From an uncultured Spartobacteria bacterium (GTDB lineage: Bacteria > Verrucomicrobiota > Verrucomicrobiia > Chthoniobacterales > Chthoniobacteraceae), in the NCBI GenBank assembly GCA_903901425.1, contig CAIURC010000016.1, positions 1 to 64,000 on the forward strand: a stretch of DNA of 64,000 nt. The letters are read 5' to 3'. Shown piece by piece: positions 19,957 through 36,690 of the stretch. Position 1 is the first letter of the stretch. The number at the start of each line of letters is the position of its first letter. The translations under genes and the position numbers were made by a program. The notes under the pieces are model-generated. The model made no database searches. It saw only the letters and a program-made list of their open reading frames with translations, and was not told where the DNA came from.

Positions 19957-20631
19957 ATGGCGAACATCTTTCCGCGCGGGAGTAACTTCCTGCCCCTCAA
20001 AATCGTTCTCTGTCTGCTTGTGATGGGTGGTTCCATCACAGCTGGTTTCGTCTACTTTTTCACCAACAAGTACACCCACGTTGGCTACCAGCCCACGCAG
20101 CCCGTACCTTTCCCGCATGACGTGCATGTCAAGCAGGTGGGGATGGACTGCCGCTATTGCCATAGCTTTGTGGAGGTCGCGGCCCATTCCAACGTCCCGA
20201 CCACGCAGGTGTGCATGAACTGCCACCTTCAGATTCAGAAGGACAACCCGAAACTCGAGGCGGTCCGCGACTCCTGGCGGACCGGCAAGCCGATCCAGTG
20301 GGTGCAGATCCACAAGACTCCCGACTACGCGTATTTCAACCATTCGGCCCATGTGAACCGCGGGGTTTCATGCGTGAGTTGCCATGGCAAAATCCACGAG
20401 ATGCCCGAGGTTTACCACGCTAAGCCTCTCACCATGGCTTGGTGCTTGGAGTGCCACCGCAATCCAGAGGAGGCGCTCCGGCCTGTCAAGGAAGTCACAA
20501 ACTTGGACTGGCAGCCGCCCGTCAAGGATGGTCAGTCGGTCGCCGAGGCGCAGCGCGAACTGGGCTCCAAGCTGAAGAAGGACTGGGGCATTAACCCTCC
20601 CGACAAGAACTGCGCTGGTTGTCACCGCTAA
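19957..20631 (+). CDS. actA: Alternative complex III subunit ActA, pentaheme cytochrome c
   Basis: The 224-residue protein has an N-terminal membrane anchor (PLKIVLCLLVMGGSITAGFVYF) and five CxxCH heme sites: CRYCH (65-69), CMNCH (86-90), CVSCH (139-143), CLECH (163-167) and CAGCH (219-223). Length and heme count match ActA of alternative complex III, the quinol:cytochrome c/oxidase oxidoreductase that replaces bc1. It is the first gene of a long operon, begins 118 bases after the CRP-like palindrome, and is 12 bases ahead of actB. No clear ribosome-binding site precedes the ATG. Confidence 0.95.
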   Translation: MANIFPRGSNFLPLKIVLCLLVMGGSITAGFVYFFTNKYTHVGYQPTQPVPFPHDVHVKQVGMDCRYCHSFVEVAAHSNVPTTQVCMNCHLQIQKDNPKLEAVRDSWRTGKPIQWVQIHKTPDYAYFNHSAHVNRGVSCVSCHGKIHEMPEVYHAKPLTMAWCLECHRNPEEALRPVKEVTNLDWQPPVKDGQSVAEAQRELGSKLKKDWGINPPDKNCAGCHR

Positions 20632-20643
20632 ACTTCATTTTCG

Positions 20644-23600
20644 ATGAGCAAACGCGTTTTTTTCCATCCACCGGAAACCGAGCACGGGAAGAAGTACTGG
20701 CGTAGTGTTGGCCAGTTGAGCGACTCGCCCGAGTTTCGTTCATGGCTCGAGCGGGAGTTCCCTCAGGGGGCTGCAGAACTCGAGGGCAGCGATGTCTCGA
20801 GAAGGAATTTCCTTCAGCTCATGGGGGCTTCCATGGCTCTTGCTGGTCTGAGTTTTTCTGGATGTCGCCGGCCTGAGAAGCATCTGGTTCCGTTCAGTCG
20901 TGGAGTGGAATGGGCCATCCCCGGTAAGGCCTTGTTCTTCGCTACTTCCATGCCTTCCAGCAAGGGCGGTCTCCCTCTGGTGGTTGCCACCCATGATGGT
21001 CGCCCCACCAAGGTCGATGGAAACGTGATGCATCCGCTCAGCAAGGGGTCATCCCCGGTGCTGGCGCAGTCCTCCATCCTGGATCTCTACGACCCGGATC
21101 GCGCCCGGTTTTTCCGAAATTCGGGCAAGCAGGTGGAGTCCTCGGAATTTGAGTCTGCTCTGGGGGAGCTGGCCAAGGGTTTTGGTGATGGGTCAGGTCT
21201 CGCATTCTTGGTTGAGCCCTACGAGTCGCCGACCCGCGAAAGGTTGGTGGCTGAAATCAAGGAAAAGTACCCCAAGGCCCGCTGGATCTCCTACGATCCA
21301 ATCGGACCGGTTTCCGCTCCGGTCTATGGGGAGGGCGTTTCCGCTCTTCCGAAGTTCGACAAGGCGAAGGTGATCCTTTCTCTGGATCACGATTTTCTGG
21401 GAACGGATTGCGCCGGTGACTTTGCAAGGCAGTTTGCTGCCCAGCGCAAACCGGACGCGAAGTCAGGGATGAACCGGTTGTACGTCGCTGAGAACCGCTT
21501 CACCTTGACGGGCGGGATGGCGGATCACCGGATCCGTGTCCAGGCGAGCCAGATCGGAGCGTTTGCCATTGCGATCGCCCGTGAAGTGCTTGCGGCCACG
21601 AAAGATGCGAATTTGGCTGTCGCGCTGGAAGGTGCGCCTGCTGCCTCGGGTGCGTTTCAGGCGGACTGGGTGCGCGAAGCGGCGGCAGATTTGGTGGCAA
21701 CGAAGGGCAAGAGCCTCGTGCTCGTGGGGCCGAGACAGCCTCAACAGGTTCAGGTGATTGGTGCTGCTCTGAATGCCGCGCTCGGCAACCTTGGCAAAAC
21801 CCTCGTGGGTCGCCGCTCGCCGGGTGCGTTTGGAACGGTTGGGATCGCTGCTCTGGCTGCGGAACTGGCTGCTGGGCAGGTCAAGGCGCTCTTCATCCTC
21901 GGCGGGAATCCGGTGTATAACGCTCCGGCTGACCTCGACTGGGCATCCGCCCAGAAAGCCTTTTGCTCAGACAAAGGCGGAGTCGTGGTTCGCCTGTCGC
22001 ATCACGAGGACGAAACCTCGGCCCTCTCCACATGGCAGGTTCCCATGGCTCATCCGCTGGAGACATGGGGCGACACACGTGCGATGGACGGAAGTTATCT
22101 TTCCGTTCAGCCGATGATCCTCCCGCTGTTCGGAGGATGGTCTGAGTTGGACCTGCTTGCCAAGATTGCCGGACACCAAAAGCCGGAAGGGCCTGAGTTG
22201 GTTCAAGACACCTTCAAGAAGGTGGTGAAACCCCAAGATTTCACCGTGGCATGGAGCAAGTTCCTTCATGACGGGTTTGCCCCCAAGTCAGCTGGATCAC
22301 AGGAGGCGCCTGTCGAATTGTCGCTCAATGCAGCGCTTCTGGCCGGAGCCGGCAAAGGCGTGCCCGCGCCGCTTGCACAGGATGCGTTCGAGGTTGTGCT
22401 GGTGGAGGACGCCAAGGTTCAGGACGGGCGTCATGCAAACAACGGATGGCTCCAGGAGCTTCCAGACCCCGTCACGAAGCTGGCATGGGACAACGCGGCC
22501 CTGATCAGCCCTTCAAGCGCCAAGCAACTCGGTCTTGAGAATGGCGATCTCATCGAGGTCTCATTCCAGAAACGGTCGATCCAGATCCCGGTATTCGTGG
22601 TTCCCGGGCATGCAGACCGTTCGCTCACGATTCCGCTCGGGTATGGCCGGAGTTTTGGCGGCCGGATCGGTGGGCGCGGCGTAGGTTTCAATGCCTACCC
22701 TCTGTTGACGCGCGAGACACCGTATCTGATCTCTGGGGCTTCTGTCCGGAGGCTGAACAGGAAGCATCCGCTGGTGGTTACCCAGGAGCATGGCGCGATT
22801 GAAGGCCGTGGCGCGGATCTGCTTCGGGAAGGGACGATCTCTCAGTACAAGGAGCAACCTGACTTTGCGAAAGCCATGGGCTTGGACGCCCATGCGGAAT
22901 GGGCTGAGAAGAACGGTAAAAAGACAGAGGTCATCAACCGTTCGCTCTACTCGCATCCTCCCCTTAACGACGTGCATCAGTGGGGGATGACCATCGACCT
23001 TTCCACCTGCACAGGGTGTTCGTCCTGCATGGTGGCGTGCCAGGCCGAGAACAACATTCCGATTGTTGGCAAAGAGCAGGTTGGGTTTGGCCGCGAAATG
23101 CACTGGATCCGCACGGACCGCTATTTTGCCAGCGAGAACGACGATGTGCTGGAGCCGGAGATGATTTACCAGCCGATGCTCTGCCAGCACTGCGAAAGCG
23201 CCCCGTGCGAGACCGTCTGCCCAGTCAATGCCACCGTGCACAGCGAGGACGGCCTCAATGTGATGGCGTATAACCGCTGCATCGGTACCCGCTACTGCGC
23301 GAACAACTGTCCGTTCAAAGTGCGCAGGTTCAACTTCTTTGATTACAACCAGCGCAAGATCCAGGACGGCGGGCTGTATGAGTGGAATCTTCTTTCTTCG
23401 AAGGGTACCGAGGAAACCGTGAAGATGCAGAAGAACCCTAATGTCACTGTCCGCATGCGCGGGGTGATGGAGAAGTGCACGTTCTGCGTTCAGCGCATTC
23501 AGGAAGCCAAGGTTTCCGCAAAGGTTCTGGCCAAGGATTCGAACCATTTCCGGATCCCGGCAGACAAGTTCACCACGGCGTGCGCCCAAGCCTGCCCGAC

Positions 23601-23847
23601 CGAGGCCATCACCTTCGGCGACATCAGCAATCCTGAGAGCTCTGTGTCCAAGGTGCGCGCATCCGAGCGCGGGTACCGCCTCCTTGAGTATCTGAACGTC
23701 GGAAGCCGGGTCTGGTACTTGGCCCGTATTCGCAACCCCAATCCGAAGATGCCTGATGCCGCCAAGGTGGGCGCGCATTCCAAGCCCTCCCATCACGGAG
23801 GCGGGCATCACGAAGCCAAATCTCATCACACCGGAGGTGAAGCATAA
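20644..23847 (+). CDS. actB: Alternative complex III subunit ActB (molybdopterin-like plus Fe-S)
   Basis: In this 1067-residue fusion, a Tat motif ([17 protein letters not shown]) ending in a possible lipobox (SFSGC) comes after about 50 residues, as is usual in ActB. A molybdopterin-oxidoreductase-like domain follows to about 740, then a four-cluster ferredoxin domain. Its cysteine sets are [11 protein letters not shown] near 788, [24 protein letters not shown] and CTFC with CAQAC. It would pass quinol electrons through the Fe-S wire to the hemes. The C-terminus is His-rich ([18 protein letters not shown]). The stop overlaps the actC start (TAATG), so translation is probably coupled. Confidence 0.95.
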
Positions 23848-25295
23848 TGTCTGAGAATTCCCAAGCCGCGCCGGCGGTACAATTGAAGACGCCGCCCGAA
23901 CTTGCGCGGGTTCCGCTGGTCACGAACAACCGTTCTCTGGGCTGGATCACCGACAAGGTGTCCACCATCGTGGAGGAGCGTACGGGGCGCTGGTGGTGGA
24001 TCGCATTCCTGATCTGCTCGCCGATCGCACTGATGGGGCTTTGCTGCGTCATCTACCAGATCTCCAACGGGGTCGGTGTCTGGGGCGAAAACAAGACGGT
24101 CGGTTGGGCGTGGGACATCACCAACTTCGTGTTCTGGATCGGGATCGGCCATGCGGGCACGTTGATCTCTGCCATTCTCTTCCTGACTCGCCAGAAATGG
24201 CGGACCTCCATCAACCGGGCGGCCGAGGCCATGACGCTGTTCGCGGTGGTCTGCGCCGGGATCTTCCCCGCGATTCACGTGGGCAGGTTCTGGATGGCGT
24301 GGTTTCTTGCGCCGATCCCGAACAGCTACGGGATCTGGCCCAATTTCCGGTCACCGCTCCTCTGGGACGTGTTCGCTGTGTCCACCTACTTCACGGTCTC
24401 GGTACTGTTCTGGTACACGGGTTTGGTGCCGGACCTTGCAACCCTTCGGGACCGTGCGCGGGGTCCAATCGCCCGGTTCATCTACGGGGTGTTCGCCTTG
24501 GGGTGGAGGGGCTCCAACCGCCAGTGGCGTCACTATGAAATGGCCTACCTGCTCCTGGCTGGTCTTTCCACGCCTCTGGTGCTTTCGGTGCATTCGGTGG
24601 TGTCCTTCGACTTCGCAACTTCCATTCTGCCAGGATGGCACACCACGATCTTCCCGCCTTACTTCGTGGCGGGCGCGATCTTCGGCGGATTTGCAATGGT
24701 GCTGACCATCATGCTTCCGGCCCGATTGCTGTACACGCAGATCGATGATCTGATCACCCGTCAGCACGTCGACAAGATGGCAAAGATCATCCTGCTGACT
24801 GGCACGATCGTGGGCTACGCCTACCTGATGGAATTGTTCATCGCATGGTACGGGGCAAATCCCTATGAAAAGTTTACGTTCTTCAACGCCCGATTGGGTT
24901 TGGAAGGGAAGGGGTGGTACGCTTGGTCGTACTATGTGATGATGTTCTGCAACGTGATTTCGCCGCAGCTCTTCTGGATCAAATCCATGCGGACAAATTA
25001 CGTGGCCGTTTTCATCGTCTGCATGTTTGTCAACGTGGGAATGTGGTTTGAGCGGTTTGTGATTATTGTCACATCCCTGGCTCAGGACTTCCTGCCTTCC
25101 TCCTGGCGGCATTATTCACCCTCCACCACCGAGATACTCACATTCGTGGGCACCTTCGGAATCTTCCTCACCCTGTTCCTCCTCTTCATGCGGTTCCTAC
25201 CGATGATCGCGATGTCCGAGGTGAAGATTGTGACGCCGCAGGCCGACCCCCATCATCACCCGGAGACCTCCCCTGAGGCTGCCGCCAACCACTGA
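23847..25295 (+). CDS. actC: Alternative complex III subunit ActC (NrfD-like quinol site)
   Basis: This integral membrane protein of 482 residues has about ten helices of the NrfD/PsrC family. It is the main quinol-binding membrane subunit of ACIII and is proposed in the family to couple to proton movement. Typical segments are [18 protein letters not shown] and [17 protein letters not shown]. The C-terminal tail carries a His run (DPHHHPE). It starts with a TAATG overlap with actB and is followed 9 bases later by actD. Confidence 0.95.
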
Positions 25296-25304
25296 GACCT
25301 GATC

Positions 25305-25850
25305 ATGGCTGAATACAAGAAAGTCTATGGTATAGGCGCTGAGTTCAACAGCGCTGCCGATCTCCTGCACGCCGCAGAAAAGGTGCGGGACGAAAAGTTC
25401 ACAAAGTGGGATGTTCACACCCCATTCCCGATCCACGGGATGGACGCGGCGATGGGGCTGGGCAAGTCCTGGCTTTCCACGCCGGTCCTGATCGGTGGCG
25501 CGATAGGAACCCTGACCGCTGCGCTCCTGACGTTCGTTCCTTCGTGGTTTATCTACCCGATGATTGTTCACGGGAAGCCTTTCAACTGGGCGACCCTCCC
25601 GGCCTTCTTCCCGATTTTCTTCGAACTGACGGTTTTGTTCTCAGCGTTCAGCACCGTGTTCGCGCTCCTGATCATGAACCAACTCCCGAAGTGGTACCAC
25701 CCCGTGTTCAACTGGGACCGGATCAAAAAGGCCACGGATGACGGGTTTTTCATCGTGATCGAATGCCGGGATCCGAAGTTTTCGGAAACCAAGACCCGTG
25801 AGTTTCTCGAGGGTCTGGGCGGCACCAACGTGACTCTGATTCAGGATTAA
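25305..25850 (+). CDS. actD: Alternative complex III subunit ActD (DUF3341)
   Basis: The 181-residue protein has an N-terminal soluble part (VYGIGAEFNSAADLLHAAEKV), two transmembrane helices (about 65-88 and 100-125), and a C-terminal soluble part (DGFFIVIECRDPKF). This is the normal DUF3341/ActD architecture; ActD is a structural membrane subunit without cofactor. It lies between actC and actE, as in other ACIII operons. Confidence 0.93.
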   Translation: MAEYKKVYGIGAEFNSAADLLHAAEKVRDEKFTKWDVHTPFPIHGMDAAMGLGKSWLSTPVLIGGAIGTLTAALLTFVPSWFIYPMIVHGKPFNWATLPAFFPIFFELTVLFSAFSTVFALLIMNQLPKWYHPVFNWDRIKKATDDGFFIVIECRDPKFSETKTREFLEGLGGTNVTLIQD

Positions 25851-25862
25851 AACCGCTTTCCC

Positions 25863-26549
25863 ATGTTGCGCTACTTTTTTGCGATTTTCATTCTGGTGGC
25901 GGGCGGCGTACTCGCCCTCGCCGGGTTCCGCGGCCAGAAGGCGGGCCTTCCTCCCATTGAGATATTTCCCGACATGAAGCACCAGCCCAAGGTGCAACCG
26001 CAGCATGCCAGCAAGTTCTTTGCGGACGGCAGCGGCGCACGGAAGCCTGTTGCGGGCACCATTCCCCAGGGGTACAACCTTCTGGGCCGGTACTTCCAGG
26101 TGAGTGCGCGAAATGTCGGCTCTGAAAAGGGCGGCTTCACCAATGAGCCCAATTACTACAACACCGGCAGGATGGGTGAGGTTTACGGGGACGGTTTTCC
26201 CCTTCCAGTGAACGCCGGATTCCTTGCCCGCGGCGAGGAACGTTTCAATATCAACTGCGCGATCTGTCACGGAAAGACCGGGGCCGGGAATGGCGTGGTA
26301 CAGCAGATTGGCAGTTGGGCCACCGTGGCGAATCTTCTCGATGACCGGATTCGCTCGATGCCAGACGGCCAGATCTTCCACACCGTGACCAACGGAAAGA
26401 ACACCATGGGTGCATACGGACCCCAGATTGCGGTAGAGGACAGGTGGGCGATTGTGGCGCACATCCGTGCGCTCCAGCGCAGCCAGAACGGTAAAGTCGA
26501 GGACCTGACCGCCGAACAGAAAAACGCTTTGGAGAACGAAAAGAAGTAA
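25863..26549 (+). CDS. actE: Alternative complex III subunit ActE, monoheme cytochrome c
   Basis: The 228-residue protein has an N-terminal anchor (FFAIFILVAGGVLALAGF) and one heme site, CAICH, at about residues 132-136, in a class I cytochrome c fold. A distal methionine is probably in SMPDGQIFH or NTMGAYG. In ACIII, ActE is the likely exit point for electrons to the partner oxidase. Its stop overlaps the actF start (TAATG). Confidence 0.93.
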   Translation: MLRYFFAIFILVAGGVLALAGFRGQKAGLPPIEIFPDMKHQPKVQPQHASKFFADGSGARKPVAGTIPQGYNLLGRYFQVSARNVGSEKGGFTNEPNYYNTGRMGEVYGDGFPLPVNAGFLARGEERFNINCAICHGKTGAGNGVVQQIGSWATVANLLDDRIRSMPDGQIFHTVTNGKNTMGAYGPQIAVEDRWAIVAHIRALQRSQNGKVEDLTAEQKNALENEKK

Positions 26550-27751
26550 TGAGCCACTCACACGACCTCCATCCGCCGGTAGCGGAAAAGTTCGAAGCCA
26601 AGGACGCTGGCGTACTGCCCAAGGCCCTCTTGGGGATCGGTGCCGCAGGAATCCTGGTCAGCACACTTGGCCTGTTTGTTGAACAGTGGCGCACCCAGTT
26701 TGCGCACTCCTGGCTCTTCGCGTTCACCTATTTCCTGACCATCTGTCTGGGGTGCCTCTTCTGGAACTGCCTCCACCACGCCACCGACTCGGAGTGGTCG
26801 GTCGTGATCCGCAGGCAGGTCGAGAATCTGGCAAGCCTGTTCCCATACTTCGCCCTGTTTTTTGTGCCGATCCTCGTTTCACTCGGGATCTTGTACAAAT
26901 GGTGGAACATGGACCCTTCGTCCGAGCCGCTCCTTCTGGCCAAGCAACCGTACCTGTCGAAGCCGTTCTTCCTCATCCGAGCTGCAGCTTACTTCATTGT
27001 GCCCAGTTTGGTGGCACTTGCCTTGCGTCGGCGCTCCATACGGCAGGATGGGGACGGCGATTCCGCGCACTCCTTCATGATGCGTAAATTGGGCGTTGGA
27101 GGCATCCCCGCAGTTGCACTTTCCATCACGTTCACCGGTGTCGATTGGCTGATGGGGCTGGATTACAAGTGGTTCTCCACGATGTGGGGGGTTTACTTGT
27201 TTGCGGGAGCCGCTGGCAGCTCGATGTCCTTGATTGTTTTGGTGATTACAGCGCTCAAGTCCAAGGGGTACCTCAAGGTGGTCAACCTTGAGCACTACCA
27301 TACCATGGGCAAATTCATGTTGGCCTTCACGATCTTCTGGGCCTACATCGGCTTTAGCCAATACATGCTCATCTGGTATGCGAACATTCCGGAGGAGACG
27401 ATCTATTTCCAGATCCGGAACACCGGCTCCTGGTGGTACTTGAACACGCTTCTGGTGGTCGGCCGGTTCTTTCTGCCATTCCCCGTTCTTCTGCTGCAGT
27501 GGACAAAGAAGAAACCGAAGTTTCTTTGCATGGTCGCGGTTTGGATTCTCCTCATGCAGATGGTGGACGTTTACGTCATTGTCTTGCCCGCATTGCATCC
27601 GGGTGGTCTTTCGGTGAGCCCGTTTGACATCTCTGCGTTGATCGGGATCGGCGGCATTCTGGGCTGGCTGTTCTTCAGGAACTTGGGCAGCGCTCCGCTC
27701 TTCCCGCTTCGTGACCCGCGTCTGGAAGGTTCACTCAAACTCACGAACTGA
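26549..27751 (+). CDS. actF: Alternative complex III subunit ActF
   Basis: This polytopic membrane protein of 400 residues has about ten helices and is homologous to ActC in the NrfD superfamily. It has the family-typical AFTIFWAYIGFSQYMLIWYA and GRFFLPFPVLLLQW segments. The N-terminus is short and His-containing (MSHSHDLHPP). It would form the second membrane half of ACIII. The next small gene follows after one base. Confidence 0.94.
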   Translation: MSHSHDLHPPVAEKFEAKDAGVLPKALLGIGAAGILVSTLGLFVEQWRTQFAHSWLFAFTYFLTICLGCLFWNCLHHATDSEWSVVIRRQVENLASLFPYFALFFVPILVSLGILYKWWNMDPSSEPLLLAKQPYLSKPFFLIRAAAYFIVPSLVALALRRRSIRQDGDGDSAHSFMMRKLGVGGIPAVALSITFTGVDWLMGLDYKWFSTMWGVYLFAGAAGSSMSLIVLVITALKSKGYLKVVNLEHYHTMGKFMLAFTIFWAYIGFSQYMLIWYANIPEETIYFQIRNTGSWWYLNTLLVVGRFFLPFPVLLLQWTKKKPKFLCMVAVWILLMQMVDVYVIVLPALHPGGLSVSPFDISALIGIGGILGWLFFRNLGSAPLFPLRDPRLEGSLKLTN

Positions 27752-27752
27752 A

Positions 27753-28271
27753 ATGTCCAACGAAACAAATTCCATGGAACGGCCCAACGGCTTTTTGAGC
27801 TTCCTCTGGGGGCTCCTGATGATCGGCGTCGTTGTTGCTTTTGTTGCCTATCGCTTGAGTCGCGCGGATGGCGGATCCAGCGTGGACGGTGAGCGCGCCG
27901 CAAAGCGGGTTTCCGTTCGGGAACAGACCGAGAAAGCGGACCAGGAAAAGCTTCACTCCCTTGCATGGGTGGACAAAGCCAAGGGGGTGGTCCATCTGCC
28001 GCTTTCTAGGGCTCAGGAACTTGTGGCTGCCGAACTGGCCACGAAGAAGAAGGGCCCCAGCACGGTTGCCGTTGACGCGCCCCTGCCACCTGCGGCTCCA
28101 TATGATCCCAATGCGGCGGAACCGGCTCCCCCCGCGCTGCCATCCGCTCCCCAAGGGGCGGACCTCATCCAGTTCCCGGCTCCGGCACCCTCCGCGCAGC
28201 CTCCGGCCAATGCGAAACCTGCGGATGCCGCAGCGGCCACCGAAGCAAAACCCCAACCGACTGTTCAATGA
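27753..28271 (+). CDS. Small single-helix membrane protein of the ACIII/oxidase operon
   Basis: The 172-residue protein has one helix (FLSFLWGLLMIGVVVAFVAY), a short conserved-looking segment (LAWVDKAKGVVHLPLSRAQE), and then a long Ala/Pro-rich tail (about 100-172) likely to be disordered. The W-D-x-x-x-G-x-x-x-x-P-x-x-R-A pattern resembles small proteins coded next to terminal oxidases in other bacteria; I recognise the pattern but not a named family. ATG 27753 was chosen because it lies one base after the actF stop. The stop overlaps the next start. It may be an accessory subunit in the position of ActG, which is unproven. Confidence 0.72.
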   Translation: MSNETNSMERPNGFLSFLWGLLMIGVVVAFVAYRLSRADGGSSVDGERAAKRVSVREQTEKADQEKLHSLAWVDKAKGVVHLPLSRAQELVAAELATKKKGPSTVAVDAPLPPAAPYDPNAAEPAPPALPSAPQGADLIQFPAPAPSAQPPANAKPADAAAATEAKPQPTVQ

Positions 28272-29752
28272 CTGCAGTAGCTTCCACTGAAACTTCAGGT
28301 CCCACCCAGCCATCCGCGATGTCGGACAACGGGGCGGATGAGAAAAAGTTGGCTCTTGAGAGGTCCAACTTGGACGCGTCGTGTTCCGGGGCCGTCCTCT
28401 GGTTCTTCACGAGCGCAATTGGTTGGCTGCTCCTCAGCACGCTTCTGGGGTTGGTTAGCTCGCTGAAGCTTCACATTCCCGATTTCCTCGGCGACTGCCA
28501 GTACATGAGCTACGGCAGGGTCGCTCCGGCCTACAAGTTGGCGCTGACCTACGGCTGGGCGAGCGTGTCCGCAATGGGGGTCGGCATCTGGCTGATGTCG
28601 CGCCTGTGCCGGGTGCCCGTTCGCTTTCCCGGGATGCTGAAGTTCGGCAACCTCCTTTGGAACTCTGGGTTGACCTTGGCGATTGTTCTTCAGATTGCAG
28701 GACACGGCCAGGCTTTGGAGGGGATGGACATCCGCACGGGCCCTGCGGTGCTGATGCTCGCGGGTTACCTCTTGATTGGTTCATGGGGAGCGATCCTTTA
28801 CCGGGCACGCCGGAGCGGCCCCGCCTACATTTCCGTCTGGTATTTGCTGGGTGCGTTCTTTTGGTTCCCGTGGTTCTTCGGGGTTGCCCACTGCCTGACG
28901 GCCCGCGGGGCTCTGCAAGGGGTGATGAACAATGTGGTGGCAGCGTGGTACCAGCAGGGCCTCTCACTCTTCTGGCTGACCGCAGTCGGTCTGGCGGCTG
29001 CGTATTACCTGATTCCCAAGGTAGTGAACCGGCCTGTGTACAGTTACAACCTGGCCTCGGTCGGTTTCTGGTCGTTTGCCATCGTCGGCGGTCTGACTTC
29101 CCTCGTTCGGCTGAGCGGTGGACCCGTCCCGGCGTGGATGGTAACTCTTTCCATCGCTGCAAACATCGTGATGCTGGTTCCGGTCCTGACTGCAGTGGTC
29201 AACTTCCTCGCAACGGTGCGTGGTCACTCTGATCTGGTTTACTGCTCGCCGACTCTGCGCTTCTCCCTGTTCGGAGCCGTGGCGTTCGCCGTGACCAATG
29301 TCGTGGCTCTGGCTGCCTCCCTGCGTGGCGTGGACAGGGTGGTCCATTTCACCCAGTTTGCCGCCGGCCAGTATCACTTGCTGACCTACTCGTTTTTCTC
29401 GATGGTCATGTTTGGTGCAATCTATTACATCACGCCCCGTTTGGTTGGGTGTGAGTGGCTGTCTGCCACGCTGATCAAGTTCCATTTCTGGGGCGCGGCC
29501 TACGGCGGTTCGCTCTTGGCGGGTCTTCTCCTGATTTCTGGGATCTTCACAGGGATGGCTCTGGCCGATCCCGATGCCGCATTCCGGCAGGCGCTCCAGA
29601 TGGCGCAGTCTTATTATTTTGGGCAGAGCCTGGCATATGGGATCCTTGGTCTTGGCCACTGGATTTTCAGCCTGCACTTTCTTCTGATGCTGCTCCGGAT
29701 CGGACAGCCTGGAACCCAACCCACCCGTTTCTCCAAGCCCGGCGCGCACTGA
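28268..29752 (+). CDS. CcoN-like (cbb3 oxidase subunit I) homologue missing most metal ligands
   Basis: This 12-helix protein of 494 residues aligns with CcoN over its length, for example YYLIPKVVNRPVYSYNLAS against YYFVPKxxERPVYSYxLS. The catalytic residues do not match. The low-spin heme ligand in helix II is Tyr89 (PAYKLAL for PLHTNAV), the CuB His of helix VI is Gln230 (WYQQG for WYGHN), and the helix VII His pair is absent (TSLVRLSGG for GPHHLHY). In helix X the GHVH pair reads GQYH (Gln368, His370). Only one of six ligands survives. It is therefore probably not an oxidase and may be a structural or quinol/electron-relay subunit. It overlaps the preceding gene (ATGA) and sits before a CcoO-like cytochrome. 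Confidence 0.85.
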   Translation: MTAVASTETSGPTQPSAMSDNGADEKKLALERSNLDASCSGAVLWFFTSAIGWLLLSTLLGLVSSLKLHIPDFLGDCQYMSYGRVAPAYKLALTYGWASVSAMGVGIWLMSRLCRVPVRFPGMLKFGNLLWNSGLTLAIVLQIAGHGQALEGMDIRTGPAVLMLAGYLLIGSWGAILYRARRSGPAYISVWYLLGAFFWFPWFFGVAHCLTARGALQGVMNNVVAAWYQQGLSLFWLTAVGLAAAYYLIPKVVNRPVYSYNLASVGFWSFAIVGGLTSLVRLSGGPVPAWMVTLSIAANIVMLVPVLTAVVNFLATVRGHSDLVYCSPTLRFSLFGAVAFAVTNVVALAASLRGVDRVVHFTQFAAGQYHLLTYSFFSMVMFGAIYYITPRLVGCEWLSATLIKFHFWGAAYGGSLLAGLLLISGIFTGMALADPDAAFRQALQMAQSYYFGQSLAYGILGLGHWIFSLHFLLMLLRIGQPGTQPTRFSKPGAH

Positions 29753-29756
29753 TACC

Positions 29757-30413
29757 ATGAGCCGTTCACCTAAACTCTTCACAGGCATTCTCGCTTCGTT
29801 TGCACTCTCGTGCTTCGCGATGGTGCTCGTTCCGAACTCCCAAATTGGCCGGCTCCAACCGGAGTGGGATCAGGACACCAACACCGTGTATCCCGTCAAG
29901 AACGACCAAGGACGGGAGGCTTATGTCGCTCATGGCTGTGTGACCTGCCACTCCCAGCAGATCCGCGATCCCCAGAACGGAGAGGACATTGGACGCGGAT
30001 GGGGCGTGCGCCGCACCGTGGCTCGGGACTATATCTTGGACGATGCTCCGCTTTTGGGTTCCTCGCGAATGGGGCCCGACCTGACAAATGCAGGCTCAAA
30101 GGACTGGAGAAACGAGGCCAAAGATGACCCGCGCCGCCCGAAACGTAGGGACGCGATGTGGCATTACATGCACCTGTACAATCCTTCGGCATTTGTCCGG
30201 GAGACGAATATGCCGCCCTACAGGTTCCTGTTTGAGAAGCAGAAGATCACCGGCCAGCGTTCGGTGGATGCGCTGCCGGTTGACCCGGGTCAGGGGTATC
30301 AGGTCGTGCCGAAGCCCGAGACGGTCAAACTTGTGAAGTACCTCCTCTCCTTGGACCGCAGTTACCCGTTGAAGGAAGTCAAAGGCGCGCCATCCGCCGC
30401 CGGGACCAAATAA
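29757..30413 (+). CDS. CcoO-like monoheme cytochrome c (cbb3 subunit II type)
   Basis: The 218-residue protein has an N-terminal anchor (ILASFALSCFAMVLVP), a heme site CVTCH in the CcoO context HGCVTCHSQQIRD, then LGSSRMGPDLTNAG and NMPPYRFLF (distal Met region). These are the CcoO landmarks, so the heme c should be functional. It is paired with the ligand-poor CcoN-like gene 4 bases upstream, giving a CcoNO-like unit inside an ACIII/aa3 operon. Confidence 0.9.
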   Translation: MSRSPKLFTGILASFALSCFAMVLVPNSQIGRLQPEWDQDTNTVYPVKNDQGREAYVAHGCVTCHSQQIRDPQNGEDIGRGWGVRRTVARDYILDDAPLLGSSRMGPDLTNAGSKDWRNEAKDDPRRPKRRDAMWHYMHLYNPSAFVRETNMPPYRFLFEKQKITGQRSVDALPVDPGQGYQVVPKPETVKLVKYLLSLDRSYPLKEVKGAPSAAGTK

Positions 30414-30431
30414 GTCTAAATTTCTCAGAGA

Positions 30432-31595
30432 ATGAACGAAGGCACAGACCGTATTGATTACCGCGAAACCCCCGATCTGACGGAGGTTCATTCAGCGATT
30501 CGTCGTGAATCTGGCGACCCGACTGCGGAGAGCAGGCAGGTTCCACTCTGGCTGACCATGGCTTGCGCGGTTGCAGTGTGCTGGGCCGGCGCCTATGTCG
30601 GCGTGTTCCATGGAGGATTTTCCGGGTCGGTCTATAACGAGTACGAGAGTTCTCCCGCAGTCTTGTTCCCGCTTCCGAAGAAGCCTGGCGCCGAAGGGGA
30701 GTCCGTAGGTGCAGTTCAGAGTCTCGCCCAGATTGGTAAGGGTGTTTATTCGCAGTGCCAGCCCTGCCACCAAGCAAATGGCGCTGGTGTTGCCGGACAG
30801 TTTCCGCCCCTCGTAAAATCCGATTATGTGGTGGGTGGAGAGAAGCGTTTGGTCGCGCTCCTATTGAAGGGGATTCAGGGGCCGCTGGTGGTTGAGGGTA
30901 AGACTTATAACGGCGCGATGCCTGCATGGGAAAAGGCCCTGTCCGACAAGAAGATTGCCGCGGTGGCAAGTTACATCCGCTCGGAGTGGGGGAATGCCGC
31001 ACCTGAGATTTCCGAGGCAAAAGTGGCGGCGGCTAGGAAGGAATTCGAGGCCCGGACCGCCCCTTACACGGAGGCGGAACTGAAGCAGATCCCGGCCGAT
31101 GCAACTTTGGGTGAGTCTGGGGCACCTGCGGGTGCCGCCCCGGTGGCTGGATCCGCTCCTGCGGCTCCTGCAGCGGTGCCTGCTGGCCCAAGCGCGGATG
31201 AATTGATGGCGAAAGGCAAACAGCAATACATGGCGATCTGCGTGGCCTGCCACCAACCCACAGGGCTGGGCTTGCCGATGGTGTTCCCTCCGCTTGCCAA
31301 GACGGAGTACGTCAACGGCGATCCGAAGCGGTTTGCGGCAATGATTTTGAAGGGAGTGGCTGGCCCTATCACCGTGGATGGCAAGACGTACAATAACATG
31401 ATGCCCGGTCAGGAAGCCGTTCTGACCGACGACAAGATTGCCGCGGTGCTGACCTATGTCCGAGGATCCTTCGGAAACCAGTCGCCGGCTGTCACCCCTG
31501 ACATCGTGGCTGCAGCTCGCAAGGAGTTCGCAGAAAAAAAGACCCCGTGGAGCGAGGCGGAATTGAAAGCCTTTGGAGGCGCCGCTGCTCAGTAA
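30432..31595 (+). CDS. Membrane-anchored diheme cytochrome c
   Basis: The 387-residue protein has one helix (LTMACAVAVCWAGAYVGVF) and two class I cytochrome c domains with CQPCH and CVACH, linked by an Ala/Pro-rich stretch. The first domain contains YNGAMPAW and the second NNMMPGQEA, the likely distal Met regions. The layout is CcoP-like. The second domain is very close to the free cytochrome encoded next (about 80 percent identical by eye over the last 70 residues), so tandem duplication is likely. It is expected to carry electrons between ACIII and the aa3 oxidase. Confidence 0.88.
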   Translation: MNEGTDRIDYRETPDLTEVHSAIRRESGDPTAESRQVPLWLTMACAVAVCWAGAYVGVFHGGFSGSVYNEYESSPAVLFPLPKKPGAEGESVGAVQSLAQIGKGVYSQCQPCHQANGAGVAGQFPPLVKSDYVVGGEKRLVALLLKGIQGPLVVEGKTYNGAMPAWEKALSDKKIAAVASYIRSEWGNAAPEISEAKVAAARKEFEARTAPYTEAELKQIPADATLGESGAPAGAAPVAGSAPAAPAAVPAGPSADELMAKGKQQYMAICVACHQPTGLGLPMVFPPLAKTEYVNGDPKRFAAMILKGVAGPITVDGKTYNNMMPGQEAVLTDDKIAAVLTYVRGSFGNQSPAVTPDIVAAARKEFAEKKTPWSEAELKAFGGAAAQ

Positions 31596-31642
31596 GCTGA
31601 ATTTTAGGTACCTGAAACAGAACACCCAACCCAATAACGATC

Positions 31643-32098
31643 ATGAAAAACATCTTCGCAGCAGCAGTTGCAGCATTTCTCGGAGCGGGCTTGGTCCAAG
31701 CTCAGGACGCCGCGGACCAGGCAACTCAGGGCAAAGGGATTTACATGACAATCTGCGTGGCCTGCCACCAACCCACCGGCGCAGGTTTGTTCCCTGTGTT
31801 TCCCCCGATCACCAACTCCGAGTACGTGGCGGGTTCCGCGGAACGTCTCGCAGCCATGATTCTCAAGGGCAATGCCGGTCCGATGACCGTGGACGGAAAG
31901 CTCTACAACAATATGATGCCTGGGCAGGAGGCGGTTCTCACGGACGAAAAGATCGCGGCGGTCATGACCTACGTGCGCTCCAACTTTGGAAACAGCGCCC
32001 CGGCGGTTTCAGCGGACGTGGTGGCTGCTGCGCGGAAGAAGTTTGCGGACCGGAAAACCCCTTGGACTGAGGCGGAATTGAAGGCTTGGAAGGACTAA
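31643..32098 (+). CDS. Periplasmic monoheme cytochrome c
   Basis: The 151-residue protein has a Sec signal (MKNIFAAAVAAFLGAGLVQA) and one heme site CVACH, with distal Met region YNNMMPGQEAV. It closely matches the second domain of the diheme cytochrome just upstream, including the ending TPWTEAELKAW. It is a candidate soluble shuttle between ACIII and CuA. It sits 47 bases after that gene and just before oxidase subunit I. Confidence 0.9.
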   Translation: MKNIFAAAVAAFLGAGLVQAQDAADQATQGKGIYMTICVACHQPTGAGLFPVFPPITNSEYVAGSAERLAAMILKGNAGPMTVDGKLYNNMMPGQEAVLTDEKIAAVMTYVRSNFGNSAPAVSADVVAAARKKFADRKTPWTEAELKAWKD

Positions 32099-32144
32099 TT
32101 TGCGTTCCTGGAAAAAGGGCGCCCTAAAAAAGGAGACACAACCT

Positions 32145-34019
32145 ATGGCTACACACGCAGCGCACGACGCAGGACATGCCGCTCATGACCACGGCCATGA
32201 CGACCACCACGAACTCGGGTTCTGGAAGCAGTACGTGTTTTCCACGGACCATAAGGTCATCGGCATTCAGTATGCCGTGACAGGCCTGCTTTTCCTTCTT
32301 CTGGGTTTCGGCCTGATGCTGGCGATGCGCTGGCAGTTGGCCCATCCTGGGGCGCCAATTCCGTATTTCGGCAAGATCCTTGCGAGCCTGCCGGTGATCG
32401 GCCAGCACTTCCCCAACGGGGCAATGTCCGCCGATGGCTACAACGAGTTTGGGGCAATGCACGGAACGATCATGGTGTTCTTCGGGATCGTGCCGGTTGC
32501 GTTCGCTGCACTCGGGAACTTTGCTGTGCCGCTGCAAATCGGGGCGCCTGACATGACGTTTCCCCGGATCAACATGGCGAGCTACTGGACGTTCTTTATT
32601 AGCTGCGTGATCATGTTGGGCAGCTTCTTCGTTCCCGGTGGTGCTGCCAAGTCCGGTTGGACTTCTTATCCGCCGCTGGCAGGGATCGCAGACCTTGGCC
32701 CGGGCAACCATCCGTTTTTCAATGGCCAGACCCTCTGGCTCACGGGGATGGTGTTCAATATCACCGCCTCGCTTTTGGGTTCAGTGAACTTCATCGCCAC
32801 GATCATCCAGCTGCGCGCTCCAGGGATGACGTGGATGAAGATGCCGTTTTTCGTTTGGACGCAGTTCATCACGGCAATCCTTTTGCTCCTCGCGTTTCCC
32901 CCGCTCGAAGCAGCAGGCATTTTCCAGTTCATGGACCGCGTGTTCGGGTCGAGCTTTTTCATGCCAACGGGTTTGGTGGTCAACCAGCAGTTGACCCAGT
33001 GGAGCGGTGGCGGCAGTCCGTTGCTGTGGCAGCACCTGTTCTGGTTCCTTGCGCATCCCGAGGTGTATGTTTTGATCCTGCCCGGCATCGGGGTGATTGC
33101 AGAGGTGGTTGCTAATAACACCCGTAAACCAATCTACGGGTACAAGGTGATGGTGGGGGCAATCTTTGCTTTGGCGTTCCTTTCCTTCATTGTGTGGGCG
33201 CACCACATGTACATGACTGGGATGGGGGCCAAGGTCGCGGCGTTCTTCCAGACGACGACGATCATGATTTCAGTGCCTTCAGTGATTCTGATTACCGCGC
33301 TGATGTTGTCTCTCTGGGGCGGTTCGATCCGGTTCACAGTTCCGATGCTGTTCGCCACGGCGTTTATGCCCATGTTCGGGATTGGCGGCCTCACCGGCAT
33401 TCCGCTCGCGTTCAACGCAGTGGACCTTTATCTGCACGATACCTATTACATCATCGGGCACTTCCACTACATCGTGGCGCCCGGCACGATCTTCGCAATC
33501 TTTGCGGGGGTGTATTATTGGTATCCGAAGGCCACCGGCCGCCAGATGAACGAGTTCTTGGGCAGGGTCCATTTTTGGGCCTCGTTGATCACCATTAACG
33601 GGATCTTTTTCCCAATGTTCCTCCAGGGCATGGCCGGTGTTCACCGGCGTTGGTACGATGGCGGCGGCGCCTCACTCGACCAGTTGACCTACAAACTGGC
33701 AGGACCGGTTCTGCACTGGAACCAGTTCATGAGCACTTCCGCCTTCCTCCTCGGTCTGGCACAGATCCCGTTCATCATCAATTTCTTCTGGAGCATTCGC
33801 AATGGCCAGAAGGTGGGCAGGAATCCCTGGGACGCCACCACGCTTGAGTGGGACGCTCCGTCACCGCCTCCTCATGGTAACTTTGACAAGCACATTGAGG
33901 TGTTCCACGGGCCCTACGAGTACTCCGTTCCGGGGGCAGCCAAGGACTTCACACCCCAGAGCGAGCCGGTGGAAACTTCGGCGGCAACCCGCCCCGTGAG
34001 TCCCGCCCCCGCCCACTAG
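32145..34019 (+). CDS. ctaD: aa3-type cytochrome c oxidase subunit I
   Basis: The 624-residue heme-copper catalytic subunit has helix II heme a ligand HGTIMVFF, the CuB/Tyr motif HPEVYVLILPG, the CuB His pair AHHMYMTG, and HDTYYIIGHFHYI with both heme ligands. The D-pathway entry APDMTFPR and the Glu of HPEVY are present. The K-pathway lysine is replaced by Leu382: VPSVIL aligns with VPTGIK without gaps. The N-terminus is His-rich (THAAHDAGHAAHDHGHDDHH). ATG 32145 has an AAGGAGA 9 bases upstream; the frame is open further upstream but lacks that support. Subunits III, IV and II follow. Confidence 0.96.
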   Translation: MATHAAHDAGHAAHDHGHDDHHELGFWKQYVFSTDHKVIGIQYAVTGLLFLLLGFGLMLAMRWQLAHPGAPIPYFGKILASLPVIGQHFPNGAMSADGYNEFGAMHGTIMVFFGIVPVAFAALGNFAVPLQIGAPDMTFPRINMASYWTFFISCVIMLGSFFVPGGAAKSGWTSYPPLAGIADLGPGNHPFFNGQTLWLTGMVFNITASLLGSVNFIATIIQLRAPGMTWMKMPFFVWTQFITAILLLLAFPPLEAAGIFQFMDRVFGSSFFMPTGLVVNQQLTQWSGGGSPLLWQHLFWFLAHPEVYVLILPGIGVIAEVVANNTRKPIYGYKVMVGAIFALAFLSFIVWAHHMYMTGMGAKVAAFFQTTTIMISVPSVILITALMLSLWGGSIRFTVPMLFATAFMPMFGIGGLTGIPLAFNAVDLYLHDTYYIIGHFHYIVAPGTIFAIFAGVYYWYPKATGRQMNEFLGRVHFWASLITINGIFFPMFLQGMAGVHRRWYDGGGASLDQLTYKLAGPVLHWNQFMSTSAFLLGLAQIPFIINFFWSIRNGQKVGRNPWDATTLEWDAPSPPPHGNFDKHIEVFHGPYEYSVPGAAKDFTPQSEPVETSAATRPVSPAPAH

Positions 34020-34046
34020 ACCTGACAAGAGACCTGTTTGTTTCCC

Positions 34047-35030
34047 ATGCAAATTCCGCACGAAGTCACCGCGCGCCCGGATACCGGGCTTTACAACTCA
34101 AAGCTTGGCATCTGGCTGTTTCTAGCCTCCGAGGTGATGTTGTTTGGAGGTCTGTTCTCCGGCTACATCTTTCTCAGGATGGGAGCGGAGCCAGGGTACT
34201 GGCCGCATGGGCTGTTGAACGTGCCCGTGGGCACGATGAACACGGCTGTGCTCATTGTGTCATCGGTGACGGTGGTGATGGCGTGGGCTGCCCTGAAGAT
34301 GCGTCAGTTTCTGCAGTACAAGATGTACATGCTGATCACCATCATCTGCGGCATCATCTTCCTCGGCGTAAAGCTGAGCTACGAGTACCCGCAGAAGTTT
34401 GATCACTTCGGCGCGTTCATCCGCAAGGATTCGCTTTCCAAATATGAGGCGTACTTGGGCAACGAGTTTCTCAAGTCGAAGAACCTCGATCCCAGGGTGG
34501 AAATTTCCGGGCATCTTCTCGATGCACCGAAAGGTTCACCCTACGAGGCGGTGGCCAAGAAGAATGCTGAACACTTTAAGCACATGCTGCATGAGGAGGG
34601 GATCGGCGGGGGGCACGGAGACGGGCATGGCGCGCAGGTGCAGGTTCAGACAGAGGCCACGGACGATTACGTGATCCAATTGGATCCTGCGAACGCGCGG
34701 CCAACGGACCCTGCCAACGAAGCGCCGAGTTTCCTCCCCAAAAAGCAGACCATGATGACTGCGGTGGTCAAGGCGGCCGACGTGGAGAATGCGAGCATGT
34801 TTGTGCCCCGGCACAGCCCTTACTTCGCGATTTATTTCACGATTACTGGCCTTCACGGTCTCCACGTTTTGGGCGGCGTCTTGGTCTTCATTTATTTCTG
34901 GGGACCGGGCTCGAAGCTGTACCAGCGCAACCCGGAACATCTGGCCAACCGCGTGGAGGTTGCCGGACTCTTCTGGCATTTCGTGGATCTCGTGTGGATC
35001 TTCGTTTTCCCACTTTTCTACCTCCTCTAA
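34047..35030 (+). CDS. ctaE: Cytochrome c oxidase subunit III with a large internal insertion
   Basis: The 327-residue protein has SKLGIWLFLASEVMLFGGLF, the standard subunit III first helix, and ending helices with HGLHVLGG and FWHFVDLVWIFVFPLFYLL. Five helices are expected in about 200 residues. Here some 130 extra residues lie between helices 3 and 4, mostly charged and including GGGHGDGHGAQVQVQ. The start was taken at ATG 34047. The subunit stabilises proton uptake in subunit I; the role of the insert is unknown. Confidence 0.93.
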   Translation: MQIPHEVTARPDTGLYNSKLGIWLFLASEVMLFGGLFSGYIFLRMGAEPGYWPHGLLNVPVGTMNTAVLIVSSVTVVMAWAALKMRQFLQYKMYMLITIICGIIFLGVKLSYEYPQKFDHFGAFIRKDSLSKYEAYLGNEFLKSKNLDPRVEISGHLLDAPKGSPYEAVAKKNAEHFKHMLHEEGIGGGHGDGHGAQVQVQTEATDDYVIQLDPANARPTDPANEAPSFLPKKQTMMTAVVKAADVENASMFVPRHSPYFAIYFTITGLHGLHVLGGVLVFIYFWGPGSKLYQRNPEHLANRVEVAGLFWHFVDLVWIFVFPLFYLL

Positions 35031-35048
35031 CCGAAAATTTTTGAACGC

Positions 35049-35435
35049 ATGAGCGACTACAGCGTGAAGACGACCGACAAGGATCATGCACACGGGCACG
35101 GAGATTCCGGTCACGGTGATTCCGGGCATGGCGGCCATGAGATGCATTTGAAACTTTACTGGGGGATCGGTGCAGCGCTGATCGCCTTGACGGGTTTCAC
35201 CGTTGCCCTGAGTTACATCGATTTCGGAACCAAGGAACGGAACATCGTGATTGCGATGCTCGTGGCCGCGTTCAAGGTGTGTCTGGTGGGTGCGATTTTC
35301 ATGCATCTCAAGGGTGAAAAGCCGTTGATCTGGAAATTCCTCTATTTCTCGGCTATCTTTGTGGCTGGCTTGTTTTTCCTGACTCTTCTGGCGGCGTCGG
35401 ATCCGATTTTCGGCACAAACTTCAACCAACACTAG
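35049..35435 (+). CDS. Cytochrome c oxidase subunit IV, prokaryotic type
   Basis: The 128-residue protein begins with a His/Gly-rich segment (HAHGHGDSGHGDSGHGGHEM), followed by three hydrophobic helices. The second and third contain NIVIAMLVAAFKVCLVGAIF and MHLKGEKPLIWKF, typical of the COX4_pro family. It follows subunit III by 18 bases and is a small structural subunit of the aa3 oxidase. Confidence 0.9.
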   Translation: MSDYSVKTTDKDHAHGHGDSGHGDSGHGGHEMHLKLYWGIGAALIALTGFTVALSYIDFGTKERNIVIAMLVAAFKVCLVGAIFMHLKGEKPLIWKFLYFSAIFVAGLFFLTLLAASDPIFGTNFNQH

Positions 35436-35443
35436 GAGGCACC

Positions 35444-35629
35444 ATGTCACTGAGAGCGTTCCATATCCTGTTCATTGCACTGTCTGTTTTGATGGCGGCG
35501 GCGTGTTCGGCTTGGGCGTTTTTGAACCAAGCGGGAGTGATTTTTGGGGGTTGTTCTGCTCTGGTATCGGTGGGGTTGGTCGTCTACGGGGTGCGTTTCC
35601 TTTCCAAGACCCGCAACATCATCGTATGA
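35444..35629 (+). CDS. Small two-helix membrane protein in the oxidase operon
   Basis: The 61-residue protein consists of two hydrophobic helices (FHILFIALSVLMAAACSAW and VIFGGCSALVSVGLVVYGV) and a short basic tail. A strong AGGAGG lies just before the ATG, and the stop overlaps the next start (ATGA), so it is very probably expressed. No family is recognised. It may be an oxidase assembly factor or a minor subunit. Confidence 0.75.
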   Translation: MSLRAFHILFIALSVLMAAACSAWAFLNQAGVIFGGCSALVSVGLVVYGVRFLSKTRNIIV

Positions 35630-35916
35630 AGACAAAGCTTGGATTCAGCGGCAGGTTTGCACCGTGGTTTGTTTTCCTGATTCTCGGTGCTGCAGGAGGT
35701 GCGAACGCCTGCACGGTTTGCATGGGGGACCCTGGTTCCCGCGAGGCGGGAGCCATGAATGCTGCGATTTTCCTAATGCTAGCGTTCATCGGCGGGGTTC
35801 TCGGGCTGGCCGTCGCGTTTGGCGTTTATTTGCACCGGAAGTCGGTGGCACCCCTCGAACCGCATGTGGCTTTCGTGAGTGGAGGCAGCTTCAACCAAAA
35901 CATTCAAGAAGACTAA
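35626..35916 (+). CDS. Small exported membrane protein with a CxxC motif
   Basis: The 96-residue protein has a signal-like helix (WFVFLILGAAGGANA), then ACTVCMGDPGSREAGAMN and a second helix (AIFLMLAFIGGVLGLAVAFGV). The C-T-V-C-x-G-D-P pattern recurs in small proteins next to oxidase genes, and the CxxC pair could bind copper or take part in thiol chemistry; both are inference. ATG 35626 overlaps the previous stop, and subunit II begins 6 bases after this gene. Confidence 0.75.
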   Translation: MKTKLGFSGRFAPWFVFLILGAAGGANACTVCMGDPGSREAGAMNAAIFLMLAFIGGVLGLAVAFGVYLHRKSVAPLEPHVAFVSGGSFNQNIQED

Positions 35917-35922
35917 AAAGGT

Positions 35923-36690
35923 ATGTTGAATAAACTTCTCGGCATTGTTCCGGACGCTTCTGAGCATGGGTACCAAATCGACCATATGCTGGAGTTTTGC
36001 CATTGGTTCATGCTCATCCTGTTTGTGGGCTGGCTGATCTTTTTCGTGTCGACGCTGGTCCGGTTCCATCGGTCCAGAAACCCCAAAGCCAACTACCACG
36101 GGATTCAGGGGCACATGTCCACTCACGTCGAGATGAGCGTCGTGCTCATTGAGGCGGTTCTGTTGATTGGGTTCGGGCTTCCGCTCTGGGGAAAACGAGT
36201 GACCGAAGATTCGTTCCCCGACAAAAACGAGGCCCTGCGGGTGCACGCGGTGGGTGAACAGTTCGCATGGAACTTCCATTATCCTGGTCCGGATGGCGTT
36301 TTCGGACGTCAGAGCGCTTTCCTGGTGAGTTCGACGAATCCTTTGGGAATCGACAACACGGACCCTGCTGCTGCAGACGACGTGGTTTCCAAAAACGAAC
36401 TGCATCTCACCAATTACCGCCCGACGGTGATTGAGATCACCTCCAAGGATGTGATTCACAGCCTTTCACTCCACAACATGCGGATCACTCAGGACGCAAC
36501 GCCTGGGACGAGGGTTCCCGTGTGGTTCAGGCCGAAAAAGACCGGCACCTATGAGATTGTTTGCGCCCAGTTGTGCGGGGCTGGCCATTTCGCAATGCGT
36601 GCGGACATGATGGTGGAAGAGAAGAAGGATTTTGATGCTTGGTACAAGGAGACTGCGGCTCTCCAGCACCCGGCGACTGCCGCAAAGTAA
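35923..36690 (+). CDS. ctaC: Cytochrome c oxidase subunit II (CuA)
   Basis: The 255-residue protein has two N-terminal helices and a periplasmic cupredoxin domain. The CuA ligands are visible: VIHSLSL (His) and CAQLCGAGHFAM (Cys, Cys, His, Met). The usual Glu of CxExC is Gln; its backbone oxygen binds CuA, but its side chain normally binds Mg. No fused cytochrome c domain is present, so this is aa3 rather than caa3, and the separate cytochromes upstream may replace that domain. Placing subunit II after I, III and IV is an unusual order. Confidence 0.95.
   Translation: MLNKLLGIVPDASEHGYQIDHMLEFCHWFMLILFVGWLIFFVSTLVRFHRSRNPKANYHGIQGHMSTHVEMSVVLIEAVLLIGFGLPLWGKRVTEDSFPDKNEALRVHAVGEQFAWNFHYPGPDGVFGRQSAFLVSSTNPLGIDNTDPAAADDVVSKNELHLTNYRPTVIEITSKDVIHSLSLHNMRITQDATPGTRVPVWFRPKKTGTYEIVCAQLCGAGHFAMRADMMVEEKKDFDAWYKETAALQHPATAAK

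Follow-up and report, generated by a model that had tools for sequence, protein, structure and literature searches.

A CcoN homologue without heme and copper ligands in ACIII operons of Verrucomicrobiota: a probable structural subunit of a respiratory supercomplex

Results

Gene organization of the ACIII-aa3 cluster

The window analyzed here is a stretch of 64,000 nucleotides from an uncultured Spartobacteria bacterium (contig CAIURC010000016.1, positions 1 to 64,000), a Chthoniobacter-like organism whose closest relatives with a name belong to the Chthoniobacteraceae. A single dense cluster on the + strand (19957–36690) encodes ActA-F, a small transmembrane (TM) protein, a CcoN homologue (pCcoN), a CcoO homologue (pCcoO), two cytochromes c and the aa3 oxidase (Table 1), with the coordinates and gene order that an initial annotation of this DNA had given. 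The act and oxidase genes share one cluster in relatives as well. The ligand motifs of the window CtaD are complete (GAMHGT, FLAHPEVY, AHHMY and GHFHY). The small protein between ActF and pCcoN, orf277, carries the motif WVDKAKGVVHLPLSRA and matched no Pfam family; it occupies the ActF-CcoN interval in most, not all, relatives, be their CcoN intact or not, and is perhaps an accessory subunit.

Table 1. Genes of the cluster and codons of pCcoN at the ligand and active-site positions of CcoN (Pseudomonas numbering).
Feature	Position	Strand	Evidence or remark
ActA, ACIII pentaheme cytochrome c	19957..20631	+	five CXXCH; order conserved among relatives
ActB, ACIII iron-sulfur/molybdoenzyme-like subunit	20644..23847	+	translation; syntenic in 14 loci of same bacterial family
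ActC, ACIII quinol-site membrane subunit	23847..25295	+	70-90% identity among relatives
ActD	25305..25850	+	translation; family synteny
ActE, monoheme cytochrome c, presumed ACIII exit heme	25863..26549	+	one CXXCH, residue 132
ActF	26549..27751	+	translation; family synteny
orf277, small single-TM protein	27753..28271	+	between ActF and CcoN
pCcoN, ligand-less cbb3 subunit I homologue, 494 aa	28268..29752	+	Pfam, TIGRFAM, PDB alignment, fold
Tyr89 codon	28532..28534	+	low-spin heme b ligand position H60, helix II
Gln230 codon	28955..28957	+	CuB ligand position H207, helix VI
Gly274 codon	29087..29089	+	catalytic cross-linked Tyr251 position, helix VII
Val280-Arg281 codons	29105..29110	+	CuB ligand positions H257-H258
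Gln368 codon	29369..29371	+	high-spin heme b3 ligand position H345, helix X
His370 codon	29375..29377	+	low-spin heme b position H347; sole ligand kept
pCcoO, CcoO-like membrane-anchored monoheme cytochrome c	29757..30413	+	PF02433; CXXCH and axial Met retained
CcoP-like membrane-anchored diheme cytochrome c	30432..31595	+	PF00034/PF13442; TIGR00782 4e-18; CXXCH at 109, 270
Monoheme cytochrome c	31643..32098	+	Pfam; CXXCH
CtaD, A-type oxidase subunit I	32100..34019	+	all ligands present
CtaE, oxidase subunit III	34038..35030	+	Pfam and TIGRFAM
Oxidase subunit IV	35049..35435	+	Pfam and TIGRFAM
CtaC, oxidase subunit II	35923..36690	+	CuA motif; no fused cytochrome c domain

Fold and ligand sites of pCcoN

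The pCcoN protein matches the Pfam COX1 family (1.3e-42) and the ccoN model TIGR00780 (8e-32), the latter with 110.7 bits, far under the 583-bit equivalog cut-off, and its closest PDB sequences are CcoN without exception. An AlphaFold2 model (mean pLDDT 86.9, pTM 0.88) retrieved only CcoN structures as top Foldseek matches, with 3mk7 first by E-value and 8smr at TM 0.85/0.90 and rmsd 2.0. The COX1 match, the PDB alignment and the model bear out the CcoN fold and landmarks that the initial annotation had attributed to pCcoN.

The ligand sites were read from the alignment to 3mk7, anchored by conserved flanks. One of the six His ligands of CcoN is kept in the window protein. This agrees at every position with the earlier reading that five of the six had been replaced and that His370 alone was left, and the structural alignment places no further His at the heme or CuB sites. 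The earlier reading did not include the exchange of the catalytic Tyr251 for Gly274, which is added here; the equivalent Tyr is conserved in 0-4% of ligand-less copies and in 100% of intact ones. Most ligand-less relatives keep 0-2 of the six His, and His370 is not a family-wide feature, being present in 61% of the Chthoniobacter-type clade and missing from genus g2. Because no heme b3 or CuB ligand set remains, the catalytic function is gone. Judged by these defining ligands, pCcoN falls outside the O2-reducing cbb3 oxidases and is best classed as a CcoN-family pseudo-enzyme encoded in ACIII operons. The protein is probably heme-free, certainly where relatives have neither low-spin His the more likely case.

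Two other roles for such a protein have to be weighed against a purely structural one. The protein could still be redox active, with a residual low-spin heme b moving electrons or a metal held by new ligands, as might be suggested by His370 with Tyr89 opposite in the window, by the presence of both low-spin His in two other loci (L089 and L090) and by H60 and some partners in other lineages. Such activity is nonetheless unlikely: the helix II His is 0% conserved in the Chthoniobacter-type clade, both low-spin His are absent from genus g2, and across the ligand-less copies no new conserved His/Met/Cys cluster emerges at the old site, so that a new metal site was rejected. A role beyond scaffolding, as a proton- or ion-conducting path or a gas or quinone channel that regulates the partner oxidase or ACIII, is similarly improbable. 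The conserved polar residues K251, R112 and H406 of the sequence would favor it, but the catalytic Tyr and the active-site polar residues that end the proton path are lost.

Conservation and selection

Among 40 genomes belonging to the bacterial family of the window, 32 encode a pCcoN homologue, and none of these copies has the six His. The order ActB-C-D-E-F, pCcoN, pCcoO recurs in all 14 family loci examined, and the aa3 genes follow in all those whose retrieved stretch extends far enough. Most class-level homologues also lie in this slot next to actF. A profile search of 388 genomes of the phylum gave matches in 123, some of which are genuine CcoNO; a scan of named genomes yielded 350 relatives.

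The reading frame is open in 31 of the 32 matching family genomes; contig ends cut some copies short. Between closely related ligand-less pairs dN/dS is 0.06-0.24, the same range as between intact pairs. In one genome (G016; L036:6214-7711) the frame is split into two overlapping ORFs at residue 279-280, within a GC-rich run, which is either a sequencing error or a real break. By synteny and dN/dS, the non-catalytic core that the earlier proposal had described as kept in frame between the ACIII and aa3 genes is under selection and not decaying.

Intact and ligand-less copies in the ACIII slot

The gene that follows ActF encodes a CcoN with six His and the Tyr in Opitutales, in some other Verrucomicrobiota and in some contigs labelled Planctomycetota. 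In a set of 112 non-redundant CcoN, 29 intact and 52 ligand-less copies lie behind ACIII, and 15 intact copies and 1 ligand-less copy lie away from it; 52 of the 53 ligand-less copies with readable context are thus located behind ACIII. Because other lineages hold a ligand-intact cbb3-like subunit in the same slot, an arrangement of the ACIII-cbb3 type is the origin of the module.

The columns lost in ligand-less relative to intact copies are the ligands, the Tyr, R57 and W203. Retained are W53, P71, G83, G96, W108, R112, W131, P250-K251, P286, P288, P390-R391, E396-W397, H406-F407, G413, G425 and G429. In L089 and L090, H60 and H347 are kept and the b3/CuB center is lost, the pattern expected of an intermediate in which only the low-spin heme His pair is left.

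It is very unlikely that pCcoN is a functionless remnant decaying within a highly expressed operon. The ligand-less copies do evolve faster than intact ones, as seen from their long branches in the CcoN tree, and the G016 frame is broken in two. Against this stand the 31 open frames, the low dN/dS, the retained columns from W53 to G429, and the sparing of the remainder of the protein in each of the repeated losses described below. The ligand loss is family-wide, and decay, which would have undone the initial annotation, was ruled out by conservation, synteny and dN/dS. Misalignment of the ligand sites with histidines nearby, conceivable at ~20% identity to characterized CcoN, has a negligible probability and was discarded, since helices II, VI and X align gapless and are anchored by invariant Trp/Pro/Gly, the bridging intact relatives (35-40% identity to the window) all have the His, and Foldseek recovers the CcoN fold with an rmsd of about 2 Å.

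Three further observations concern individual loci. An Opitutaceae copy (L143:4572-6146) has only the CuB His pair replaced (AR), with the four other His in place, and may be a very recent loss. In the intact ACIII-slot CcoN that were checked (e.g. L093, L126 and L155), Gln takes the place of the active-site Glu of cbb3 oxidases (Glu323), in contrast to 3mk7 and to the window genome's own CcoNO. An intact CcoN-CcoO-cytochrome trio that ACIII does not precede, or that ACIII follows instead, occurs in L152-L153, L156, L160, L164-L168, L176 and L180, on contigs labelled Ignavibacteria, Dadabacteria, Myxococcales and Deltaproteobacteria.

Repeated loss of the ligands

Intact CcoN is the ancestral state because the outgroups are intact. 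A CcoN tree built with the ligand columns removed needs 3 changes and does not reject a single lost clade (p 0.25, L143 set aside); rapidly evolving, relaxed sequences are drawn together in such a tree. Trees of ActC and ActF from the same operons, which are free of the long-branch pull of CcoN and presuppose joint inheritance of the Act genes and CcoN, need 8 and 9 changes and reject a single lost clade (p ~5e-40). A single-loss history, allowed by the CcoN tree alone, was therefore ruled out by the ACIII tree. On these trees, ligand loss happened repeatedly, at least 3 times by the CcoN tree and 8-9 times by the ACIII tree.

Among the ACIII operons with enough downstream sequence, CtaD lies downstream in 29 of 43 ligand-less vs 2 of 22 intact ones (Fisher p 6e-6, a raw value that is phylogenetically confounded); once the trees are taken into account, only 2-5 independent pairs bear on a link between ligand loss and downstream aa3 genes, and most of them are uninformative. 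Two loci (L123 and L126), placed in a group next to the main lost clade of the CcoN tree, already encode CtaC-CtaD downstream of a CcoN that is still intact, which suggests that aa3 genes can join the operon ahead of ligand loss. The coupling to aa3 is not universal, because 14 of the 43 ligand-less operons have no CtaD within reach. The joining of aa3 genes as the sole driver of loss was rejected on these 14 operons and on the kinship-confounded association, and is kept as a partial explanation.

Cytochrome subunits and other oxidases

pCcoO matches PF02433 (1.1e-19, 71 bits vs a cut-off of 29.6) and has the three hallmarks of CcoO: a TM anchor, read from sequence only, a CXXCH at residue 61 and an axial Met in TNMPPYRFLF. 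The intact heme site earlier noted for this neighbor is thereby upheld. In the CcoO of ligand-less loci, CXXCH is found in 55 of 56 and the axial Met in 43 of 56. One Spartobacteria-type subclade (L114-L116, L119-L122 and L105) has Cys in place of the axial Met (DS[NK]CPP) with CXXCH kept, so that its heme c is possibly ligated by Cys or shifted in potential. In some lineages the relay through the c hemes may thus be changed, because their CcoO Met is Cys or unrecognizable.

Each ligand-less genome that was checked encodes one or more further heme-copper oxidases with a strong, A-type-like score, and in those without aa3 genes downstream of pCcoN an A-type oxidase, again judged by score, is encoded elsewhere. 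In operons without aa3 genes, the module may therefore serve a separately encoded oxidase.

Verrucomicrobial methanotrophs

Five genomes (group f10) were assigned to verrucomicrobial methanotrophs from their pmoA copies, 2-4 in each. Their oxidase set comprises strong A-type-like matches, one or two B-type-like ones, a NorB-like protein (this fifth protein has NorB-like motifs in the sequences read) and the ACIII-slot CcoN. A second CcoN was sought in these pmoA-bearing genomes, and none was found besides the ligand-less ACIII-slot copy. The four methanotroph copies that were read (L069-L071 and L081) have Ser/Glu/Ser/His/Phe/Val at the six ligand positions. In one pmoA-bearing genome (G111, L081) the 6 kb upstream of the pCcoN-aa3 cluster contain no act genes, a case to be compared with strain IT6, for which a nos operon inside the ACIII cluster is reported (PMC11102522).

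Discussion

pCcoN shares with CcoN of cbb3 oxidase (3mk7, 8smr) the fold, the helix order, the structural residues and the CcoO-like and CcoP-like partner genes. It differs in lacking all CuB ligands, the ligand of the high-spin heme, one of the low-spin heme ligands and the catalytic Tyr, in its place within an ACIII operon, and in its score far under the ccoN cut-off. The genuine CcoNO of the window genome (G000:C12:71155) is a paralogous C-type subunit I that has six His and the Tyr, is fused as CcoN-CcoO and lies elsewhere in the genome.

Electrons pass directly between the complexes in the ACIII-aa3 supercomplex of F. johnsoniae and the ACIII-caa3 supercomplex of R. marinus, through an extra ActA cytochrome domain in the former and a cytochrome domain of oxidase subunit II in the latter (PMC5928083). 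As in these systems, ActA-F and A-type oxidase genes stand together in the window. Unlike them, the window lacks both bridging domains, with five standard hemes only in ActA and a CtaC without a cytochrome domain, and has a dead CcoN and CcoO/CcoP-like cytochromes encoded between the two complexes.

The explanation that we favor, and consider probable, is that a cbb3 subunit I which no longer catalyzes has been kept, as pCcoN, for a structural role in a respiratory supercomplex built on ACIII. Its non-catalytic nature and structural role are well supported; its physical association with ACIII, its heme-free state and the electron route are inferred. The ancestral operon would have combined ACIII with a working C-type oxidase (CcoN, CcoO and a CcoP-like cytochrome). 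O2 reduction would then have passed to another oxidase in many Verrucomicrobiota, and in the window lineage the aa3 genes of that oxidase would have entered the ACIII operon. CcoN would subsequently have lost the binuclear center and the catalytic Tyr, and the low-spin heme site last, while its fold would have continued to hold CcoO and the CcoP-like cytochrome next to ACIII. The electron path would lead from quinol through the ACIII Fe-S centers and hemes to the ActE heme, then through CcoO and the diheme cytochrome c to CuA and aa3. Because pCcoN is probably heme-free, bridging would fall to the CcoO/CcoP hemes and not to pCcoN, and these cytochromes, held by the old CcoN body, would form the ACIII-oxidase bridge.

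The initial annotation had proposed a new structural or electron-bridging module of a respiratory supercomplex, a reading that is supported in part. Its non-catalytic, retained core and intact c-heme subunits stand, as do the aa3 genes of the window operon. The module is not peculiar to this operon, being a class-wide family, and a link to aa3 does not extend to several ligand-less lineages without aa3 genes in the operon.

The slot is not new to the literature. In verrucomicrobial methanotrophs and Opitutaceae it has been described as an ACIII-adjacent cbb3 oxidase (PMC8498564, PMC6688271), of the same slot and family as pCcoN and assumed in these papers to be a functional high-affinity enzyme; the methanotroph copies are ligand-less, and the Opitutaceae-type copies are mostly intact. 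The methanotroph genes have been treated as a cbb3 oxidase next to ACIII (PMC6688271, PMC8498564, PMC11102522, PMC10205796); one paper explains a high affinity for O2 by them (PMC6688271), and two list them as one of three terminal oxidases (PMC8498564, PMC10205796). The adjacency of CcoN and ACIII is thus already published. In the open-access papers searched, no earlier report of the ligand loss was found.

Because the ligand-less copy is the only CcoN of these methanotrophs, their 'cbb3 oxidase' cannot reduce O2 in the known way, and the high O2 affinity deduced from it should be revisited. Assignments of 'cbb3-type, high O2 affinity' from ccoN/ccoO annotations mislead papers and pipelines in this group. 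The chances seem evenly poised for a broader proposal: that across Verrucomicrobiota an ACIII-bound cbb3 core has repeatedly, up to 8-9 times, become a heme-free membrane scaffold whose c-cytochromes form a new solid-state bridge from ACIII to a second, A-type oxidase, so that the cbb3 enzyme of Methylacidiphilum would not exist.

Cultured strains of Chthoniobacter and Methylacidiphilum allow a direct test of the idea. If it is true, an oxidase core turned supercomplex subunit would be an unusual documented path for gaining a structural subunit, with the ancestors, the intermediates and the repeated losses all preserved in extant genomes.
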